Positions 4,403 through 38,005 of a stretch of DNA of 64,000 nt are shown here, in pieces; the first letter of the stretch is position 1; each line of letters starts with the position of its first letter. Both the position numbers and the translations under genes were made by a program. The stretch comes from Paucibacter sp. B2R-40. GTDB lineage: Bacteria; Pseudomonadota; Gammaproteobacteria; Burkholderiales; Burkholderiaceae_C. The DNA is taken from positions 248,001 through 312,000 of the forward strand of contig NZ_JAJIRP010000001.1 of assembly GCF_025717555.1 (NCBI RefSeq), read 5' to 3'. The notes beneath the pieces were generated by a model. The model saw only the letters and a program-made list of their open reading frames with translations. It was not told the origin of the DNA and did no database searches.

Positions 4403-4747
4403 ATGCCACACTTGCCTCCCATGAACATCGAAGACTTGCAAATGCGGCTGCGCAAGTTCGCCATCGAGCGCAACTGGCAGCCGTTTCAAACTCCCAAAAA
4501 CCTGGCCATGGCGATGGTGGTCGAGGCGGCCGAGCTGGTGGAAATTTTTCAATGGCTGACGCCTGAGCAGTCTCAGCAGATCGCGGCCGATCCGGCCAAG
4601 CACCAGCATCTCGGTGAAGAAATTGCTGACGTGATGCTTTACCTGCTGCAAATTGCCGATCACAGCGGCATCGACATCAATGCCGCTGTGGAGCGCAAAC
4701 TGCTGCTCAATGCGATCAAGCACCCGGTGGCTGCTGCACAACAATGA
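4403..4747 (+). CDS. MazG-like nucleotide pyrophosphohydrolase
   Basis: A 114-residue all-alpha NTP pyrophosphatase of the short MazG-like (dCTPase/RS21-C6) type, which would hydrolyse (d)NTPs to NMP and pyrophosphate in the cytoplasm. The metal-binding pattern is visible as EAAELVEIFQW followed by EEIADVMLYLL. The length fits single-domain members rather than two-domain E. coli MazG. AGGGG at 4390-4394 supports the ATG at 4403. Its stop overlaps the start of the exonuclease gene (ATGA), so the two are probably co-translated. It is the first gene to the right of the candidate origin. Confidence 0.85.
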   Translation: MPHLPPMNIEDLQMRLRKFAIERNWQPFQTPKNLAMAMVVEAAELVEIFQWLTPEQSQQIAADPAKHQHLGEEIADVMLYLLQIADHSGIDINAAVERKLLLNAIKHPVAAAQQ

Positions 4748-29437: not shown

Positions 29438-31552
29438 TCAAGTCACCAAACGGCCTGCTTGCATCCGAATCACCCGCTCTGCCGCCGCGATGGTCTCGGG
29501 CCGGTGGGCGATCACAATTCTTGTCAGCTTCAAGCTGCGCAGCGAGGCATTGACCTCGCGTTCCCTTGCCACATCGAGGGCGCTGGTTGCTTCATCCAGA
29601 AGCAGAAATTGCGGCCGTTTGTAGAGCGCGCGTGCCAGCAACACGCGCTGGCGTTGGCCGCCCGACAGGGTGCTTCCCATATCGCCGATCAGGCTTTGAA
29701 AGCCCATGGGCATGGCCTTGATGTCTTCCAGCACACAGGCCAGCCGTGCGCACTCCTCTATCCACTGCGGGTCGGCGTCGGGGTCGAAAAAGGCGATGTT
29801 GTCAGCGATGCTGCCGGCGAAGAGCTGATCGTCTTGCATCACCGTGCCGATGCGGGCACGCCAGGCACTCAGGCCTATTTGCGCGAGCGGCACACCGCCG
29901 ACCCGAATTTCGCCGTCTTGTGGCTTGTGAATGCCCAGGAGCAGTTTGAACAGTGTGGTCTTGCCGCAACCCGACGGGCCGACGATGGCGACCGATTCGC
30001 CAGCTTCTATGCGCAGATTGCAGTCGCTCAACACCACCGGCTCGCCGTCCGCATAACGGAAACTCACAGCGTGCAAGTCCAGCGCGGCGGCATGCTCCGG
30101 CATTGCAGCCGGGGCATCGGCATCGGCCTCCGGCGCCGTCAGCACGATATCGGCCAAGCGCTCACCCTGTAGCCGCAACATGCTCAGCTCCACGCCCTTG
30201 TCGATCAGGCCGGCCAGGCGCAGCGTGAACTGCTCCTTATAGGCCAAAAATGCAAACAGCATGCCGACCGACAGCTCGCGCTCCAGCACCAGCAGCGCGC
30301 CCAGCCAGATGATGGCGACCCGCTCAAGGCCGAATAGCAGCTTGTGGCCTACATCCATCCAGAGGTCGAGCCGGCGCACCGCAATGCCGGCGTTCATCTG
30401 CTCAACCACCAGGTTGGCAAAAGCGGCACTGCGCTCGGCCTGCGCGTTAAAAAGTTTGATCGCCTGTGCGCCGCGCAGTGATTCGAGGAAATGGCTGTTC
30501 TGTTTGGCCTCATGCACCAGCGCCTCTTCCGAGGCCTCACGCAGCGGCCTGAAGAATGCCCAGCGCAGCAGCGCGTAGGTTGCCACCGCCAGCAGCGCCA
30601 CCCCGCTCAAACGCGGGCTGTAGACCCACATCAGGACCAGGGTGAGGATGACCATCACACCGTCCAGCACCGCCTCGGCAAAGCGGGTCGAGAGCGTGCG
30701 CTGAATCAGCTGCACGCTGCCAAAGCGCGACCAGATGTCGCCGATATGGCGTTTCTCGAACCAGGCCAACGGCAGCTTGAGCAGATGGCCGAACACCTGG
30801 GTCAGCCACTGCACATTCAGTGAGGCCGACAGATACAGCACCGCCCAGGAACGCAGCGCGCCAACACCGACTTGCAGCAGCACCAACAGGCCAAAGCCCA
30901 GGCCCAGCGTGACCAGCAAGTCGTGGTCGGCGCTGACCAGCACGCCGTCCACCACCCATTGCAGAAAGAATGGCGAGAGCAGCGCCAGCATCTCCAGCGC
31001 CAAGGCCAGGCCCAGAATCTGCATCAGCGAACGTTTGAGCCCGCTGATGCGGCCGAAGAGTTGGCGCCATTGCAGGCGCGGCGCGGCGGATTGCGGGGCG
31101 AAATGATGGCCGGGGCGCAGCTCCAAAGCAACGCCGGTGAAGTGGCGCGACAGCTCGGCCAAACGCATGCGACGCCGACCATGGGCCGGATCATGAATCA
31201 CGCAGTCGTCGCCGCTGACCTCGGCCAGCACGACGAAATGATTGAAGTCCCAATGCAGGATGGCCGGCAGCTGCAGCTGCGCCAAATGCGCCGGCTCGGC
31301 CCGCAAGGCGCGGCTGCTCAAGCCCAGATCGGCCGCCATGCGTACCAAGTCGGCCATGGACGCGCCCTTCAGCGAGAGCGAAAAGCGCGCCCGCATCTGG
31401 GCCAGATTGAGCTGCAAGCCGTAACTGCTGGCGACCATGGCCAGGCAGGCCAAGCCGCATTCGGCTGCCTCGGTTTGCAGCATCAGCGGCACGCGAGAGC
31501 GGCCACGCCAGCCCAGGTGCAGCCGCTCAATCAAATTCGGCGACTCAGACAC
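29438..31552 (-). CDS. C39 peptidase-containing ABC exporter for a double-glycine peptide
   Basis: A 704-residue ABC transporter that removes the leader of a peptide and exports the core. The N-terminal C39 domain keeps Gln26, Cys32 (QTEAAECGLACL), His105 (HWDFNHFVVL) and Asp121 (HDP), so it should be an active cysteine protease. Six membrane helices lie at about residues 175-450. The nucleotide-binding domain has Walker A GPSGCGKTT near 523, LSGGQRQR and LLLDEATSALD. It overlaps the HlyD-type gene by 8 bp and lies in one direction with the leader-peptide gene at 32864-33028, its most likely substrate. Confidence 0.93.
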   Translation of the reverse strand: MSESPNLIERLHLGWRGRSRVPLMLQTEAAECGLACLAMVASSYGLQLNLAQMRARFSLSLKGASMADLVRMAADLGLSSRALRAEPAHLAQLQLPAILHWDFNHFVVLAEVSGDDCVIHDPAHGRRRMRLAELSRHFTGVALELRPGHHFAPQSAAPRLQWRQLFGRISGLKRSLMQILGLALALEMLALLSPFFLQWVVDGVLVSADHDLLVTLGLGFGLLVLLQVGVGALRSWAVLYLSASLNVQWLTQVFGHLLKLPLAWFEKRHIGDIWSRFGSVQLIQRTLSTRFAEAVLDGVMVILTLVLMWVYSPRLSGVALLAVATYALLRWAFFRPLREASEEALVHEAKQNSHFLESLRGAQAIKLFNAQAERSAAFANLVVEQMNAGIAVRRLDLWMDVGHKLLFGLERVAIIWLGALLVLERELSVGMLFAFLAYKEQFTLRLAGLIDKGVELSMLRLQGERLADIVLTAPEADADAPAAMPEHAAALDLHAVSFRYADGEPVVLSDCNLRIEAGESVAIVGPSGCGKTTLFKLLLGIHKPQDGEIRVGGVPLAQIGLSAWRARIGTVMQDDQLFAGSIADNIAFFDPDADPQWIEECARLACVLEDIKAMPMGFQSLIGDMGSTLSGGQRQRVLLARALYKRPQFLLLDEATSALDVAREREVNASLRSLKLTRIVIAHRPETIAAAERVIRMQAGRLVT

Positions 31553-32795
31553 GGTGGGCCAGGCTCAACAAGGGCTCAAAAATCCATTCGATCAAACGGC
31601 GCCGCTCCAGCAGCACATCGGCGTCCAGCTGCATGCCGGCGCTCAAGGCTTGTTCCCGGCCATAGGCGCTGACGGTTTGGCGGTCCAGCTCGACGGTGAT
31701 GCGGTACAGCGGCTCGCTCTGTGCGCCCTGGCTGAGCGCGGCCGGCAGGTTCAGCAGCGCGAGTTCGGCCGGCGTCAGCGGTGTGCGCGAGACCTGCAAG
31801 ACCCGGCCGCTTTGGCTGCCGAATTTCTGATAGGGGAAGGCTTGGTAGCGCAGGTTGACCGCTTGCTGCGGCCGCACGAATCCCACCGCGCTGGACGGTG
31901 CGTACAACTGCGCCAGCATCTGCGCCTGAGCAGGCAGCACGCTGGCCAAGACCGCGCCGGCGTTGACACTTTGACCGGGCTCGGCCTGCAGCGTGGCGAC
32001 CACGCCGTCGCTCGGCGCGCGCAGCACCAGGCGGCGCCGACCCTCGGTTTCCAGGCCAAGCCGGTTCAGCTCAGCGCTGTCGCGCTCAATCACGCCTTGC
32101 AGCACCTGCTCCTTCAGCGGCAATTGCTGAGCCTCGGCCAGTGTCGCTGCTTGTTCGCGCAGCAAGGTCTCGCGCTGCCGCTCCAGCGCTTGGCCCTGCG
32201 CGCGCAGGCCCAGCACCTCCTCGCGCTTGGCCTGCACCTGGGCGGCGGAAATAAAGTTGTCGCGGTTGAGCTGCTCTAGCCTCACCAAGGCCGCGTCAGC
32301 CAGCGCCTGGCGCTCTTGCTGCAAGCCTGCCTCGGCCTTCAGCAAGGCCAATTCGCGTTCAATGCCCTTGCTGCGCAGCGTTAGCGTTTGCTGCTGAGTG
32401 TGCGCTAACTGCCGCTGATGTTCGGCGCTAGCTTGCAGGCTTTGCTGGCCAGCCGTCAGGTTCTTGGCGATGGCCTCGGCACTTTGGTTGGCGCTGTCCA
32501 GGCTGAGCACAAACAGCACATCGCCGGCCTTGACCGATTGGCCTTCGCTGACCTCGCGCGTCAGCACGGTCGCCGCTTGCGCCGTGCTGACGCGCAGCAC
32601 ACCGCGGTCGGGCAGCAAGTAGCCGCTGACGCGCGCTTTGCGGGTGTATTCAGCCTTGCTCAGAAACACGGCCACGGCCACTACCGCCATGATGGCGGTA
32701 AAGCTCAAGACCTTGAGCGAAAGCGGACGCAGCAATTGGATGCTGCCCAGCCAGGCCTTTTGCTGGCCTTGGATGGCCTCGGGGCGGAAGAGCAT
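31545..32795 (-). CDS. HlyD-family adaptor protein for peptide export
   Basis: A 416-residue periplasmic adaptor with one N-terminal membrane helix (residues about 28-47), a lipoyl/barrel-sandwich half (GYLLPDRGVLRV, VSEGQSVKAGDVLFVL), a long coiled coil of Gln/Ala/Leu heptads (about residues 105-230), and the second half motif VLRAPSDGVVATLQAEPGQS. It would link the ABC exporter to an outer-membrane TolC-like channel, which is not in this window. The start is fixed by an in-frame TAG 18 bp upstream. It lies 68 bp after the peptide gene. Confidence 0.9.
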   Translation of the reverse strand: MLFRPEAIQGQQKAWLGSIQLLRPLSLKVLSFTAIMAVVAVAVFLSKAEYTRKARVSGYLLPDRGVLRVSTAQAATVLTREVSEGQSVKAGDVLFVLSLDSANQSAEAIAKNLTAGQQSLQASAEHQRQLAHTQQQTLTLRSKGIERELALLKAEAGLQQERQALADAALVRLEQLNRDNFISAAQVQAKREEVLGLRAQGQALERQRETLLREQAATLAEAQQLPLKEQVLQGVIERDSAELNRLGLETEGRRRLVLRAPSDGVVATLQAEPGQSVNAGAVLASVLPAQAQMLAQLYAPSSAVGFVRPQQAVNLRYQAFPYQKFGSQSGRVLQVSRTPLTPAELALLNLPAALSQGAQSEPLYRITVELDRQTVSAYGREQALSAGMQLDADVLLERRRLIEWIFEPLLSLAHRV

Positions 32796-32863: not shown

Positions 32864-33028
32864 TTACCACCCACCCTTGGGCGATGGGTCTGTAGGCGAA
32901 GCTTGAGTTTCGGCATTGCCTTGTGTCGCGCCTCCGCTTACCAAGTGCAGCAATTGCGCGTCGATTTCCACCGGGGCTTGGTTTGGAGTGGCCTGAGAAG
33001 TCATGGACTGAGTTTGTTCGTTTTGCAT
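32864..33028 (-). CDS. Double-glycine leader peptide, putative secreted signal or bacteriocin
   Basis: A short gene of 54 codons, read directly from the sequence. It encodes a 33-residue leader ending LLHLVSGG and a 21-residue core starting ATQGNAETQ and ending SPKGGW. The leader has the pattern used by C39 exporters: hydrophobic residues at -12 (Ile), -7 (Leu) and -4 (Val), and Gly at -2 and -1. GGAA lies 6 nt before the ATG at 33028. The core has no Cys and is small, polar and Pro-rich, so it is more like a signal peptide than a pore-forming class II bacteriocin. It lies between luxR and the HlyD/ABC genes on the same strand. Confidence 0.78.
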   Translation of the reverse strand: MQNEQTQSMTSQATPNQAPVEIDAQLLHLVSGGATQGNAETQASPTDPSPKGGW

Positions 33029-33072: not shown

Positions 33073-33078
33073 ATTGCA
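33073..33078 (-). promoter_or_regulatory. Candidate -10 of the peptide promoter
   Basis: TGCAAT on the minus strand agrees with TATAAT at four of six positions. It starts 24 bp after the lux-box end, within one base of the place expected when a LuxR site replaces the -35 element. Confidence 0.35.
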
Positions 33079-33101: not shown

Positions 33102-33117
33102 CTGTCAACTCTTACAG
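33102..33117. promoter_or_regulatory. lux-box-like site upstream of the peptide gene
   Basis: CTGTCAACTCTTACAG, that is CTGT-N8-ACAG, has the same half-sites and spacing as the Vibrio fischeri lux box core. It lies 73 bp before the peptide start and just after the luxR stop, and matches the site at 33910-33925 in 12 of 16 bases. Confidence 0.7.
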
Positions 33118-33133: not shown

Positions 33134-33847
33134 TCAGCGTATCAAGCCTAGCCGCATCGCCTTTAGTACGGCTTGATGCTTGTTATTGCAATCAAGCTTG
33201 CGCATTGCATTGCTGAGATGCAGCACCGCAGTGCGTTCGCTGATGCTCAATATGGCTCCCACCTCCCAGGCAGTCTTGCCGTCCATGGTCCAGCGCAAGG
33301 CCTCTAACTCTCTTGGCGTCAGATGGGGGCGGTCGAGTTGCTGCTCGGGCGGTAACAGGACTCGCAGCGCCGTATCTACGGCATGTACGGCAAACAACTG
33401 CATGTCCGCAACCAGACGCGTCAGTTGTGCGGCGTCCGACGGAAGATCGGCGCTGCGATCCATACCGAGAACAAAGTGCCGGCCCTCGGGTAAATGCAAG
33501 GCGAGACAGACACCGGTTCGATAACCGAATCGAGCCTGCACCTCCCAAAGATGCCCGGCGTTCTTGTTCACATAGGTTCGCTGGTCCCAAACAATGGGCA
33601 CGCTTTGTCGTTTGCAATGCTGCATGACGGGATCGAGCGATGCCAGAGATGGATCACTCCAGGCGTCCTTGAAGCCGGGTGGGCAGTTGTCAATATTGAT
33701 GAAATCAGACCGCCCCAGCGAATGGTCCACCACGGTCATGGCCGAGAAATTGTCAAAGCCCATGGCCTTGGTGAAGTGCTCCAACTCATTGGCGAACACA
33801 TCCCGACTCCGAGCTTCAAGCACCGATTGGTATCGCCCGTCTAACAT
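33134..33847 (-). CDS. LuxR-family regulator with autoinducer-binding domain
   Basis: A 237-residue regulator. The N-terminal autoinducer domain keeps DP in LASLDPVMQH, the Trp in VPIVWDQ and the Gly in FGYRTGV, but lacks the usual YPxxW-Y segment (here NCPPGFKDAW), so ligand choice may differ from classic AHL receptors. The C-terminal helix-turn-helix runs LTPRELEALRWTMDGKTAWEVG to LSNAMRKLDCNNKHQAV. The ATG at 33847 was preferred because GGAGG precedes it. No luxI is in the window, so it is a LuxR solo as far as seen. It lies directly upstream of the peptide gene. Confidence 0.88.
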   Translation of the reverse strand: MLDGRYQSVLEARSRDVFANELEHFTKAMGFDNFSAMTVVDHSLGRSDFINIDNCPPGFKDAWSDPSLASLDPVMQHCKRQSVPIVWDQRTYVNKNAGHLWEVQARFGYRTGVCLALHLPEGRHFVLGMDRSADLPSDAAQLTRLVADMQLFAVHAVDTALRVLLPPEQQLDRPHLTPRELEALRWTMDGKTAWEVGAILSISERTAVLHLSNAMRKLDCNNKHQAVLKAMRLGLIR

Positions 33848-33909
33848 CGAATCGCCTCCCTCCATGCAAGGCTAGCGCCGATTTGGCGTTTTGCCCATCC
33901 GTTGTCTCC

Positions 33910-34461: not shown

Positions 34462-35667
34462 CTATTTGTGTCCGGCCACGGCCAGTCGCATGGACTTGGC
34501 GACGAACAGCAGGCAGGCCAGCGTCAGCCCCGCCCCCACCAAGACCCCCGGCATCACCTGCGCCCAAGTCAAGGCCTCGCCCTTCAGAACCAGCATCATC
34601 AGCGTGTTCTGGGCCAGTCCTGGTACCCACAAATACCAGGCCGCGTCACCGCCCGGGTTGAGCATGCTCACCATGGGCGCCAGGCCCACCAGCGTGACGA
34701 TCAGGCCGCTGCCGGCCTGCGCCTCTTTGAAGGTCTTGGAGCGAATCGCCATCGCCATCAAGACCGCGCCCAGGCCGGCCGCCAGCGGCAGTTGCAGCAG
34801 CAAAAAGGCGAACACCTCGTACCAACCGAACTGGAACATCGCCTGCAAGCTGTCGCTCCTGAGCAGCCATTGCGCCGGGATGAAGCTCAGGCTGGCCAGC
34901 AGCGCCACCAACAAGCCCAGCAGCGCCACCGCGCCCCATTTGCCCAGCACCAGGGCCAGATGCTGGACCGGGTTCATCAGCAGCGGCTCCAGCGAACCAC
35001 GTTCGCGCTCGCCGGCCGTGCTGTCGAGCGCGGCCGTGAGCGCGCCGTAAAGCACGGCCATGATGATGAACATCGGGATGATGCTGGTGATGCGGGTGGC
35101 GCGGGCCTGGGCGCTGGCCAGGTCACGCTCTTCCACCAAGACCGGCTGCAGCAGTTCGGTCGAGACGCCGCGCAGCGCCATATTCAGCGACGCGCGCTCA
35201 CGGTTGAAGCCGCCGAGCAATCGGCTCAGGCCGCCCAGGCCGGTGCTGGCACGTTGGTTGGCGCTGTCGCTGACCAGCTCCACGGTCGGCTGTTGGCCTG
35301 TCAGCAACTCTTTTTCAAAATCTTTGCCGATGACCAGCACCGGCTCCAGCAATTTGGTGTTGCGCAGCTGGCTCTCATAGTCGGCCGGGGCCGCTTTGAT
35401 CGTGTAGGTCTGGCGCTCCAGATAGTTGCGCAGCGTCGGTGCGTGTTCGATGCCGGCCACCATCACTTCGCGCTTGTCTGCGCGTTCTTCCAGCGAGGAG
35501 ATAAAGCCTGACAGCGCCAACAACAATAGCGGCCCCATCAGCACCGCCGGCACCATCAGGCGCAGCAGCGTACGGCGGTCGCGCAGCGCGTCCAGCACCT
35601 CTTTGACAAAGACGATCCAGAAATTCTTGCCCATACTTGCTTGTTGCTTTGCTTGCAGTTGTTTCAT
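34462..35667 (-). CDS. ABC-2 type permease, NatB-like
   Basis: A 401-residue membrane subunit of the NatB type. One helix lies near residue 35, followed by a large extracytoplasmic segment (about residues 60-190), then five helices in the second half, with the family signature STAGERERGSLEPLLMNPV near residue 218. With the ATP-binding protein it would form an exporter, often sodium or drug linked. Its ATG overlaps the ATPase stop by 4 bp (ATGA), so the two are co-translated. Confidence 0.9.
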   Translation of the reverse strand: MKQLQAKQQASMGKNFWIVFVKEVLDALRDRRTLLRLMVPAVLMGPLLLLALSGFISSLEERADKREVMVAGIEHAPTLRNYLERQTYTIKAAPADYESQLRNTKLLEPVLVIGKDFEKELLTGQQPTVELVSDSANQRASTGLGGLSRLLGGFNRERASLNMALRGVSTELLQPVLVEERDLASAQARATRITSIIPMFIIMAVLYGALTAALDSTAGERERGSLEPLLMNPVQHLALVLGKWGAVALLGLLVALLASLSFIPAQWLLRSDSLQAMFQFGWYEVFAFLLLQLPLAAGLGAVLMAMAIRSKTFKEAQAGSGLIVTLVGLAPMVSMLNPGGDAAWYLWVPGLAQNTLMMLVLKGEALTWAQVMPGVLVGAGLTLACLLFVAKSMRLAVAGHK

Positions 35668-36455
35668 GCCGCAACTCCTGCCTGTTCCTGGCTGAAAGCC
35701 AGTTTGACGAAAGCGTCTTCGAACTTGCGCTCGCCGGCTTGTTCAAGCAGTTGCTCGACCGAGCCTTCGGCCACGCTGCGCCCATTCGCCACGATGACGA
35801 CGTGTTCGCACAGCTGCTCCACCTCCTGCATGATGTGGGTCGAGAAAATGATGCATTTGCTGCCGCCCGCTGCCGAGCACAGATGGCGCAGCGCCTCGCG
35901 CAGCGAGCGGGTGGCCAGCACATCGAGGCCATTGGTTGGCTCGTCCAACACGATATTGGCGGGGTCATGCACCAGGGCTCTGGCCAGTGCCGTCTTCATC
36001 CGCTCCCCCTGGCTGAAACCTTCGGCACGGCGGTCGAGAATCTTGCCCATGTCCAAGAGCTTGGCCAGTTCCTCGGCGCGCGCATTCGCCGCGCCTTCTT
36101 CCATGCCCTGCAAGCGGCCGAAGTAGATGATGTTTTCGCGTGCCGACAGACGCGGGTAGAGGCCATGGGCGTCGCCCAGAATACCCATGCGTGCCAGGGC
36201 CTGGCGGGGCTGCTCGGCCACTTTGATGGTGTCGACGGTGATGCTGCCGCTGTCCGGCGTGAACAAGCCACCCAACATGCGCAGCGTGGTGGTCTTGCCG
36301 GCGCCATTGGGGCCGAGCAAGCCGGTGATGCGACCGTCGGGCGCGTCCACCGTCACCGCCTTGACCGCCTGCACCAGCAGCTTGGCCGGGCGCTTGAGCA
36401 GCGAGCCGCCACTTTTGGCGATGAACTGTTTGCTGACGTTCTCGATCTGAATCAT
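35664..36455 (-). CDS. ABC transporter ATP-binding protein, NatA-like
   Basis: A 263-residue ATPase with Walker A GPNGAGKTTT near residue 50, signature FSQGERMKTALARAL (a variant of LSGGQ, as in NatA-type proteins), and Walker B IVLDEPTNGLD. A 20-residue insertion before Walker A (SLLKRPAKLLVQAVKAV) is common in this subgroup. It is paired with the NatB-like permease, and its start overlaps the stop of the secreted hydrolase gene by 4 bp, so the three form a tight operon. Confidence 0.92.
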   Translation of the reverse strand: MIQIENVSKQFIAKSGGSLLKRPAKLLVQAVKAVTVDAPDGRITGLLGPNGAGKTTTLRMLGGLFTPDSGSITVDTIKVAEQPRQALARMGILGDAHGLYPRLSARENIIYFGRLQGMEEGAANARAEELAKLLDMGKILDRRAEGFSQGERMKTALARALVHDPANIVLDEPTNGLDVLATRSLREALRHLCSAAGGSKCIIFSTHIMQEVEQLCEHVVIVANGRSVAEGSVEQLLEQAGERKFEDAFVKLAFSQEQAGVAA

Positions 36456-38005
36456 GGCTGCACCTTGGCGGCTGACGTGCTACTGGCCTGCACCGGCAGG
36501 AAGGCGCCGGGGCGCGGAATCTTGGCTGCGCAGGCCGCGTCTTGCGGCAGCGCCAGCGCATCGGTCTTGGCGTCCACAAAGCGGAACAGCAACTCGCGTA
36601 TGCAGCCCACGCCCATCACGCCGTGGCCGGCCTCGGGCACGACGATGTGCTGTACCAGCTTGGCGTTGGTGGCGCCCAAGGCCTTGGCCGCGCGCTCGCC
36701 GTGGCGCGGCGGTGTGGCCGGGTCGGCGCCGCCGCTGAGCAGCAGTACCGGCGAGGCGGTCGGCGGCATGCTGAAGAAGGCCGGCGCGATCTGGGCGCGT
36801 GGCCATGACTGGCAAACCTGGGTGTAAAGCCTTGCGTCATCGCGGCCAAAGTCAGCACCGGGCAGGTCGGCGCTTTTCTCCAAGCGCGGCACGTCCTCTG
36901 CGCAGACGACCGAGAAATGCATGCCCATGGCAAGCCGGCTTGACTTGCCGCTGGCCAGGGCACCACTCAGGCCCATCAAGCCCTCCAAACGCCCTTGATG
37001 GGCGGCATGGATGGCCGCGGGCAGGGCAGCCGCCAAAGCCGGTGAATACAGCGGCAAACGTACGCTGCGCAGCAGCATCTCCCGGCTCAGTGTGAAGCTC
37101 TCTGGCTGGCCGGTCAGCGGGTGCATGACGCTGACTTGGCGCGGCATGCTTTGCAAGAGGGCGGCCCATTCCTGGCGCAGCTTTGGAAACAGCTGCTGGC
37201 AAGCCGGCTCTTGTTCGCAGGCCAGCAAGCTGGCGTCGAGAGCGGCCTGGCCATCGGTCGAGAAGCTGGCCGGCAAGACCATATCGGGCGGCGCCACGCC
37301 GTCCAGCACGGTGCGGCGCACCTGCGCCGGGAACAGACGCAAATACTCCAGCGCGGCGCGCGTACCGTAGCTGCCGCCGATCAGATTCCATTGCGGTGCG
37401 CCGAGGGCTGCGCGCACGGCCTCGAAGTCCTGCATGGCAATCGTGGTCGAGTAAAAGCGCATATCGCCATGCGGCAACTTGGCCAACGCCAAGCGGCAAG
37501 TCTCTAGCCGTTTGAACTGTGCGCTCGCGTCCAAGGCCTCGGCGATAGGCAGATCGCGGTCGTCGGCGCATTGCAGCGGCGCCGACTTGCCGGTGCCGCG
37601 CTGGTCGATGAAGACGATGTCGCGGCGGTTGTTCAGCCGCGCCAGCCGACTCATCACCATCGGCGCCACGGCCATGGCGCTCTGGCCGGGGCCGCCCGCC
37701 AGCATCAAGACCGGGTCAGGCTGCTTGTTGCGTGCCATCGCCGGGACCACCAGGAAGTGGATATCGATCTGCGTGCCGCCCGGCTCGGCCGGGTTCAGCG
37801 GGCGCTTGATATGGCCGCATTGCAACTCATTGGGCATGCCCTCGATGCGGCAGGGGCTGGTGCCGCTGCTGGGCGGACTCGTGGCTGAATGGGCGGGATT
37901 GCTCGCGGTAGTGAGCGCGATGGCGAGGGCGATGCCGGCCGTCGCAGCGATCCGCGCACCCTGGCGTAGCAGGCCGGAGGGTCGTGTTGGTATTCGGTCT
38001 GTCAT
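36452..38005 (-). CDS. Secreted alpha/beta hydrolase of the tripeptidyl/proline-aminopeptidase type
   Basis: A 517-residue exported hydrolase. A long signal sequence ends near SNPAHSATS (about residue 42). The oxyanion loop LAGGPGQSA, the nucleophile elbow GGSYGTRA, the Asp region SGGADPATPP and the catalytic His in PEAGHGVMG are all present, as in the TAP/SCO7095 peptidases that trim N-terminal residues from peptides. It heads the operon with NatA/NatB-like genes. A role in peptide degradation or detoxification is inferred. The long N-terminal region before the hydrophobic stretch might allow a later start. Confidence 0.85.
   Translation of the reverse strand: MTDRIPTRPSGLLRQGARIAATAGIALAIALTTASNPAHSATSPPSSGTSPCRIEGMPNELQCGHIKRPLNPAEPGGTQIDIHFLVVPAMARNKQPDPVLMLAGGPGQSAMAVAPMVMSRLARLNNRRDIVFIDQRGTGKSAPLQCADDRDLPIAEALDASAQFKRLETCRLALAKLPHGDMRFYSTTIAMQDFEAVRAALGAPQWNLIGGSYGTRAALEYLRLFPAQVRRTVLDGVAPPDMVLPASFSTDGQAALDASLLACEQEPACQQLFPKLRQEWAALLQSMPRQVSVMHPLTGQPESFTLSREMLLRSVRLPLYSPALAAALPAAIHAAHQGRLEGLMGLSGALASGKSSRLAMGMHFSVVCAEDVPRLEKSADLPGADFGRDDARLYTQVCQSWPRAQIAPAFFSMPPTASPVLLLSGGADPATPPRHGERAAKALGATNAKLVQHIVVPEAGHGVMGVGCIRELLFRFVDAKTDALALPQDAACAAKIPRPGAFLPVQASSTSAAKVQP

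Follow-up and report, generated by a model that had tools for sequence, protein, structure and literature searches.

LuxR receptors are regarded as small-molecule sensors, as in the LuxI/LuxR systems built on AHLs (LasR, TraR, QscR, SdiA), and what the LuxR 'solos' sense is a long-standing question. The signals of PluR and PauR are small molecules made by enzymes, and in the RRNPP systems a short linear peptide is secreted, trimmed and re-imported, to be read by a cytosolic TPR regulator. According to PMC10134790 and PMC4981722, PluR (photopyrone) and PauR (dialkylresorcinol) are LuxR proteins with an endogenous non-AHL signal. PMC4981722 further describes PipR as responding to peptides (Ser-His-Ser at high concentration) and to plant extracts, its natural signal being plant-derived and unidentified; RRNPP peptide pheromone systems of Gram-positives are named in PMC13220807.

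The locus described here, part of a window of 64,000 nucleotides from Paucibacter sp. B2R-40 (the whole stretch of DNA that was analysed), shares with the LuxI/LuxR AHL systems the receptor fold and domains, a lux-like box at about -43 before what would be the signal-making gene, and exoprotease targets; it differs from them in that a peptide gene replaces luxI, the W57-equivalent of the receptor is replaced in 89 of 94 loci, and the pocket covaries with the peptide. With the class D solos PipR and OryR it has in common a LuxR without LuxI, a response to peptides (here proposed) and peptidase genes nearby, but whereas no peptide gene of PipR's own is mentioned in the abstract and discussion of PMC4981722, in the present locus the peptide gene is linked to the receptor and co-evolves with it. 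Like PluR and PauR it would use an endogenous non-AHL signal, theirs being small molecules and this one a ribosomal peptide. By analogy with RRNPP systems, secretion, trimming, re-import and cytosolic reading of a short peptide are proposed, but the receptor has a LuxR rather than a TPR fold, export would follow the Gly-Gly/C39 route, the host is Gram-negative and a precursor can hold several copies. Double-glycine microcins and their C39 type I secretion, finally, have the same Gly-Gly leader, HlyD adaptor and C39 ABC exporter, but not the tiny repeated motif, the covariation with a LuxR pocket, the loss of the leader in some lineages or the lack of a recognised immunity gene. A described LuxR-peptide system of this kind was not among the matches listed in the open-licence literature, which is a limited negative, nor does one appear in the available parts of the LuxR-solo surveys PMC10134790 and PMC4338825 or of the review PMC13220807. 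We propose, with a probability of roughly 75%, that the locus encodes LuxR-type quorum sensing with exoproteases under its control, in which a peptide gene standing in the place of luxI supplies the autoinducer.

Results

All elements of the locus lie on the minus strand. The peptide precursor gene (32864..33028; ATG to TAA, 54 codons), identified from its sequence and its relatives, encodes the leader MQNEQTQSMTSQATPNQAPVEIDAQLLHLVSGG and the core ATQGNAETQASPTDPSPKGGW. The double-glycine leader, residues 1-33 (32930..33028), is supported by an alignment of the leaders of 23 relatives and carries I at -12, L at -7, V at -4 and GG at -2/-1, while the core comprises 21 residues without Cys and has at its C-terminus the hexapeptide SPKGGW (32867..32884), which we propose, based on motif conservation, as the core of the mature signal. 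Co-oriented with this gene are those for the HlyD-family periplasmic adaptor of the exporter (31545..32795) and for a C39-peptidase ABC exporter of 704 aa (29438..31552) with C32, H105 and D121, which is proposed to cleave after Gly-Gly and to export the product. The peptide gene follows a luxR-type gene (33134..33865) for a protein of 243 aa, the proposed peptide receptor and activator, whose matches to Autoind_bind (PF03472, 7.6e-25) and GerE (PF00196, 4.1e-16) place it in the LuxR family. A sequence-only reading of this DNA had described leader, core, catalytic residues and gene context in just this way, and each of these elements is borne out. The window peptide thus has both the Gly-Gly leader and the linked C39 exporter with Cys-His-Asp, from which cleavage and secretion are inferred.

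The peptide matched no Pfam or NCBIfam model at E ≤ 0.01, and a plasmid search using the locus returned no matches. No peptide importer was found among the ten neighbours scanned at the window locus, and no immunity gene was recognised among the annotated neighbours, for which no immunity-specific search was made. The flanking features expected of a class D solo of the OryR/PipR type are a pip gene (proline iminopeptidase) and a peptide ABC importer. Upstream of luxR lie an ABC-2 type permease (34462-35667), an ABC ATPase-like protein (35664-36455), judged only from its match to the nucleotide-binding part of the exporter, and an S33/TAP-like peptidase with an N-terminal signal-like stretch (36452-38005; pro_imino_pep_1 match at 1.9e-13, below the cut-off). 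The role of all three in the system is unproven. Their linkage is common, but the 5 kb upstream showed no S33 peptidase or ABC-2 gene in L107, L159, L162, L164, L173 and L174, and we therefore do not count them as part of the system.

To place the peptide in a family, 148 related genomes were searched with the window peptide and exporter, and the DNA between luxR and hlyD was then read. Twenty-five loci had an exporter at least 63% identical, of which L071 was dropped because it meets a contig edge. In 23 of the 24 usable loci a related ORF lay between luxR and hlyD, so that related peptides do occur beside homologous exporters; the exception, L079, has neither luxR nor the peptide there. A LuxR-alignment scan of named genomes, from which the best 80 of 172 relatives were kept, again yielded such a peptide in the same place. 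Removal of duplicate strains reduced 103 loci to 94, with L071 and L079 also dropped before the counts and L264 (genome G028) standing outside the 94. Leaderless peptides, missed by the Gly-Gly filter, were recovered by three-frame translation. In each of the 94 non-redundant loci, luxR is followed by a peptide of the family, and the 54-codon frame predicted from sequence alone is accordingly a real gene. Since these loci were selected for their similarity to the LuxR or the exporter, they are uninformative on more distant LuxR proteins. As labelled, with the taxonomy unchecked, the 80 loci of the LuxR scan come from Burkholderiales genera, namely Roseateles, Paucibacter, Mitsuaria, Pelomonas, Rubrivivax, Methylibium, Ideonella, Piscinibacter, Rhizobacter, Leptothrix and Aquabacterium, or from unresolved bins, one bin being named Vitreoscilla.

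What is conserved in these peptides is a short motif rather than the 21-residue core that the sequence-only reading had taken as the unit. An xPxxxW hexamer is present in 85 of the 94 loci, and seven have a related motif without Trp (LPRVS, LPRVG or LPRIG); of the remaining two, L178 carries a 7-residue TPRGGSW in a five-unit array and L111 a hexamer in a frame without ATG. Pro2 and Trp6 occur in 85/85, as demanded by the search pattern, and positions 1, 3, 4 and 5 are variable. A gene holds between one and seven copies. Two to seven are found in 45 of the 85 genes, and in 41 of these 45 all copies are identical, though they differ between species; first and last copy agree with a frequency of 0.911, compared to a shuffled mean of 0.064 and a maximum of 0.244. 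Codon pairs between copies within a gene differ synonymously in 151 cases and non-synonymously in 7 (82 and 7 for first and last copies only). This excess of synonymous change, together with the identity of copies within genes, indicates that the repeated peptide, and not the DNA, is under selection. The end of the motif is the C-terminus of the peptide in 78 of 85 genes, and the first copy starts at most two residues from Gly-Gly in 54 of the 81 genes in which a leader was assigned by a simple pattern.

Between luxR and the peptide gene lies a lux-box-like palindrome, CTGTAAGAGTTGACAG (33102..33117), centred at about -43.5, with the -10 element TGCAAT (33073..33078) 23 nt past the box. A box within one mismatch of CTGTMAGANYTGACAG is found in 85 of 94 loci, and its spacing to the -10 element is exactly 23 nt in 93 of 94, although 19-27 nt were allowed. 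A centre near -43.5 fits the class-II activation position of LuxR (lux box near -42.5). Judged by sequence and without binding data, a lux-type box before the proposed signal gene is the arrangement of a LuxR-family activator circuit. The earlier suggestion of quorum control is thereby strengthened by the conservation of a LuxR-type box spaced as for an activator.

When the strict pattern TGTMANNNNTGACAG-N23-TNNRNT was scanned in 59 genomes, we obtained 29 matches, compared to none for the reversed pattern used as a control. Seventeen of these genomes encode this LuxR at E ≤ 1e-40 (the LuxR+ set), and 16 of the 17 contain 23 strict matches, all of which precede either a peptide gene (15) or the gene of a secreted metalloprotease (five M4, two M9 and one M35). 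The window's own genome has exactly three strict sites, one for this peptide and one each for an M4 and an M9 protease. The isolate Paucibacter sp. TC2R-5 (L101), whose motif is CPKGTW and in which no LuxI was found, likewise has M4 and M9 sites besides its peptide promoter. Among the other 42 genomes, one M35 match fell in G002, which is 76% complete and in which luxR was not found, and the remaining 41 gave five matches. The only LuxR+ genome without a strict match, G008, is missed because its peptide box ends in ACAC, and in 10 of the 17 the strict search matched only the peptide promoter. Protease identity rests on Pfam for one or two members per family and on blastp (76-100% identity) for the others; one of the proteases, L257, lies at a contig edge and is represented by a fragment of 140 residues. 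A looser box, with up to one mismatch, gave many sites without a sensible downstream gene, which were not counted as targets. We kept as possible targets an M35 gene in G008 and M4 genes in G007 and G015 (Pfam for G007), and further possible ones are an M28 gene opposite an M4 gene and DUF5916-like genes behind a lux-like box, namely L235 in G010, with a weak Pfam match, and L236 in G009, similar-looking by eye.

The form CTGT-N8-ACAG also resembles a LexA/SOS box, and in G009 and G004 a DNA polymerase IV-like gene (recognised by eye) follows a one-mismatch site. We disfavour a LexA box: in LuxR+ genomes it is peptide and protease genes that follow the strict box with its 23-nt spacing, and the other 41 genomes contain few such sites (five).

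By sequence and predicted structure, the receptor resembles SdiA, QscR and LasR. Its AF2 model (pLDDT 86.4) found QscR (6cbq) as the best PDB match, followed by SdiA, with a TM-score of about 0.6 against the whole of QscR and of 0.8 against CepR2 when only the ligand-binding domain is compared. The AHL site of LuxR proteins comprises W57, Y61, D70, P71, W85 and G113. With this numbering mapped through LasR, Trp occupies the W57 place in only 5 of 94 loci, with Y or F there in 88, and Tyr the Y61 place in 24; the other equivalents are kept (D70 in 91/94, P71, W85 and G113 each in 94/94). By these substitutions, the receptor does not satisfy the six-residue definition of an AHL receptor. LuxI (PF00765) was not found in the window's genome, and by the criterion of a cognate luxI the system is not a LuxI/LuxR AHL system. 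Among 89 relatives the same search detected LuxI in 17 at E ≤ 0.001, 11 of them over the cut-off. AHL input is not excluded everywhere, since two of the 17 LuxR+ genomes, G008 and G009, have a LuxI.

We then compared motif positions with LuxR columns by normalised mutual information weighted for relatedness, using the 85 hexamer loci and leaving out the seven non-Trp loci, L178 and L111. The list of pocket residues was checked against PMC9654057 and PMC8472786, and Arg61 was added in a rerun. For each of the variable motif positions 1, 3, 4 and 5, the top LuxR column was a pocket column (4/4), compared to none of 11 controls; these columns are the equivalents of LasR T115, W60, Y64 and A70, with z of 8.5-12.3. 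Entropy-matched p values for pocket excess at positions 1, 3, 4 and 5 were 0.0064, 0.0002, 0.0014 and 0.093, and plain rank-sum values 0.23, 5e-5, 0.011 and 0.28. As a caveat, three of the 11 controls (leader -5, -7 and -12) also had an entropy-matched pocket excess (p = 0.0014, 0.034 and 0.046). When co-change was counted along the branches of a tree built without pocket columns, the top column again lay in the pocket for 4/4 positions, which none of 1000 branch-length-weighted null runs matched. Under this null the pocket-minus-rest score reached p = 0.005 and the summed pocket score p = 0.16; the minimum p alone was unusual only for positions 3 and 4 (0.49 and 0.29 for positions 1 and 5). 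Exporter columns (452 in all) reached z of only 4.9-7.6 over the same 70 loci for which LuxR columns reached 8.0-11.0.

The clearest of the individual pairings joins Thr5 of the motif to Gly75 of the receptor, with both present in 34 loci, neither in 47 and only four discordant. The receptor has Gly75 in 34 of 35 Thr5 loci, and this is the best of 360 column/residue splits; the two states switch on 12 shared branches, compared to 2.1 expected (p = 5e-5). Gly5 goes mostly with a bulky residue 75 (W13 M10 H4 Y4 A3 Q2 F1), and the window pair, SPKGGW with Ala75, is among the less extreme. Receptor residue 106 is K, R or Q in 11 of 21 loci that lack K/R at motif position 3 and in 0 of the 64 that have it (branch p = 4.5e-4), and a larger motif residue 4 pairs with a smaller receptor residue 69. 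The Thr/Gly and charge splits were picked after the tables had been seen. In the seven non-Trp loci the receptor has L/V/M for Phe55, which is F in 85/85 Trp loci, and carries Met at residue 45; these loci look like one or two events. Taken together, the residue tables look like contacts, which in the absence of binding data remains an inference from aligned sequences. Given that the motif co-evolves with the ligand pocket, we favour a signal where the sequence-only reading had left signal or antimicrobial undecided, secretion itself not having been shown; LuxR, taken there as a regulator alone, is probably also the receptor of the peptide.

The Gly-Gly leader and linked exporter, as described for the window, do not hold throughout the family. 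At some loci the hlyD and C39 genes have been lost. Seven of them (L115, L128, L136, L145, L151, L167, L175) keep Gly-Gly without a locus exporter, and all seven genomes have an exporter relative elsewhere, matched over the C39 part too. Six exporter-less loci have no Gly-Gly leader (L119, L131, L141, L154, L178, L264), and in L159 it reads Gly-Ser. At E ≤ 1e-60, no exporter relative was found in the genomes of L119, L131, L141, L178 and L264, while that of L154 has two and that of L159 one; some exporter-less genomes are bins and may be incomplete. With five leaderless-locus genomes lacking an exporter relative at this threshold, C39 export cannot be general. L119, L131, L141 and L154, which have no Gly-Gly leader, still follow the Thr5/Gly75 rule.

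Several of these loci have features of their own. L119, L131, L141 and L264 carry leaderless peptide genes of 18-20 codons, e.g. MQATHQTQTTTLLPRNGW, beside luxR and the box, and for L141 the 18-codon start is preferred because an in-frame upstream ATG precedes the -10 element. L154 contains, at about 4450-4640, a head-to-tail array of seven AGPRGTW units that differ in their synonymous codons; it has neither a Gly-Gly leader nor a locus exporter. In L151, L152 and L167, about 0.4 kb after luxR, a stand-alone C39-domain-like protein (30% identity in L167) is encoded beside a 4-copy SPKGTW gene; by eye it seems to lack the catalytic Cys and is possibly a remnant or a carrier.

Discussion

The gene, the conservation of its motif, the box with its spacing, the regulon sites and the covariation of motif and pocket are in silico observations, and in the circuit that we propose they would be joined as follows. 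With luxR followed by a lux-like box at the position of class-II activation, and with the peptide gene occupying the luxI slot, the arrangement would provide positive feedback. The adjacent C39 ABC/HlyD exporter would cut the precursor after Gly-Gly and export the core, which would be trimmed down to a short product with xPxxxW at its C-terminus, in the window SPKGGW (631 Da); the invariant Pro2 would block general aminopeptidases, and extra copies would raise the yield. The peptide would then re-enter cells and occupy the AHL pocket of LuxR, and peptide-bound LuxR would activate the operon of the peptide along with secreted metalloproteases, namely an M4 and an M9 in the window genome. Export, trimming, import, binding and activation are thus inferred, with binding the best-supported of these steps and export and import plausible.

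The main rival to this reading is that the peptide acts as LuxR ligand inside the producing cell, as co-inducer, folding partner or timer, with export serving as disposal or as an added function. The leaderless peptides of 18-20 residues (LPRNGW, LPRAGW) and the 7-copy GPRGTW gene, all of which occur next to luxR and the box at loci that have no exporter, speak for it, as do the five genomes without an exporter relative and the persistence of the Thr5/Gly75 rule in leaderless loci. However, the leaderless forms may exit via another transporter, and the many loci that retain the Gly-Gly leader and an adjacent HlyD/C39 pair in conserved order would make little sense for a purely internal ligand, so that we regard a solely intracellular role as unlikely, though not negligible.

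We give far less weight to the idea that LuxR senses an AHL or another small molecule and that the peptide is merely an output, a bacteriocin or other secreted effector. A Gly-Gly leader with a C39 exporter is classic for microcins, the D70-, P71- and W85-equivalents are mostly kept and some relatives do have LuxI; yet the window's genome has none that was found, the W57-equivalent is mostly Y or F, no immunity gene was recognised in the limited survey of neighbours, and the motif covaries with the LuxR pocket and not comparably with the exporter. It appears just as improbable that the peptide is secreted together with the co-regulated metalloproteases in order to inhibit them or to mimic their substrate. 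Such a role would suit the M4, M9 and M35 targets, the resemblance of P-[KR]-G to collagen triplets and the Trp-ending tripeptide metalloprotease inhibitors of viper venoms such as pEKW, but the covariation found is with LuxR (no protease comparison was made), the peptide persists in leaderless, exporter-less loci, and in 10 of the 17 LuxR+ genomes only its own promoter is matched, even if in G007 and G015 an M4-type gene follows a looser box.

Beyond the window, we consider it probable that peptide-based LuxR signalling of the proposed kind forms a Gram-negative quorum-sensing class, in which receptors of the LuxR fold recognise linear, gene-encoded peptides whose sequences evolve together with the AHL pocket, in species-specific 'dialects' of up to seven copies and with some lineages exporter-free; examples of dialects at the locus are SPKGGW, APKNTW, TPKGTW and LPRVS. 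Should binding be shown, this would be a new class of quorum-sensing pair, while fold, box logic and export are already known. If true, the ligand would be encoded beside its receptor, peptide pheromone signalling would be joined with the LuxR fold, and Thr5/Gly75, Lys3/Leu106 and Trp6/Phe55 would represent a specificity code across dozens of receptor-ligand pairs, possibly orthogonal.

Components of the system also occur in further copies. The window's genome encodes a second C39-type exporter (L088; G000:C1:737628-739712), 54% identical and accompanied by HlyD, for which there was no luxR match in 13 kb and no Gly-Gly peptide in the 1 kb before HlyD. At L082 (8639-11917), luxR itself is present in tandem: four paralogues are almost complete and a fifth is partial, and a second HlyD/C39 exporter pair lies close by.
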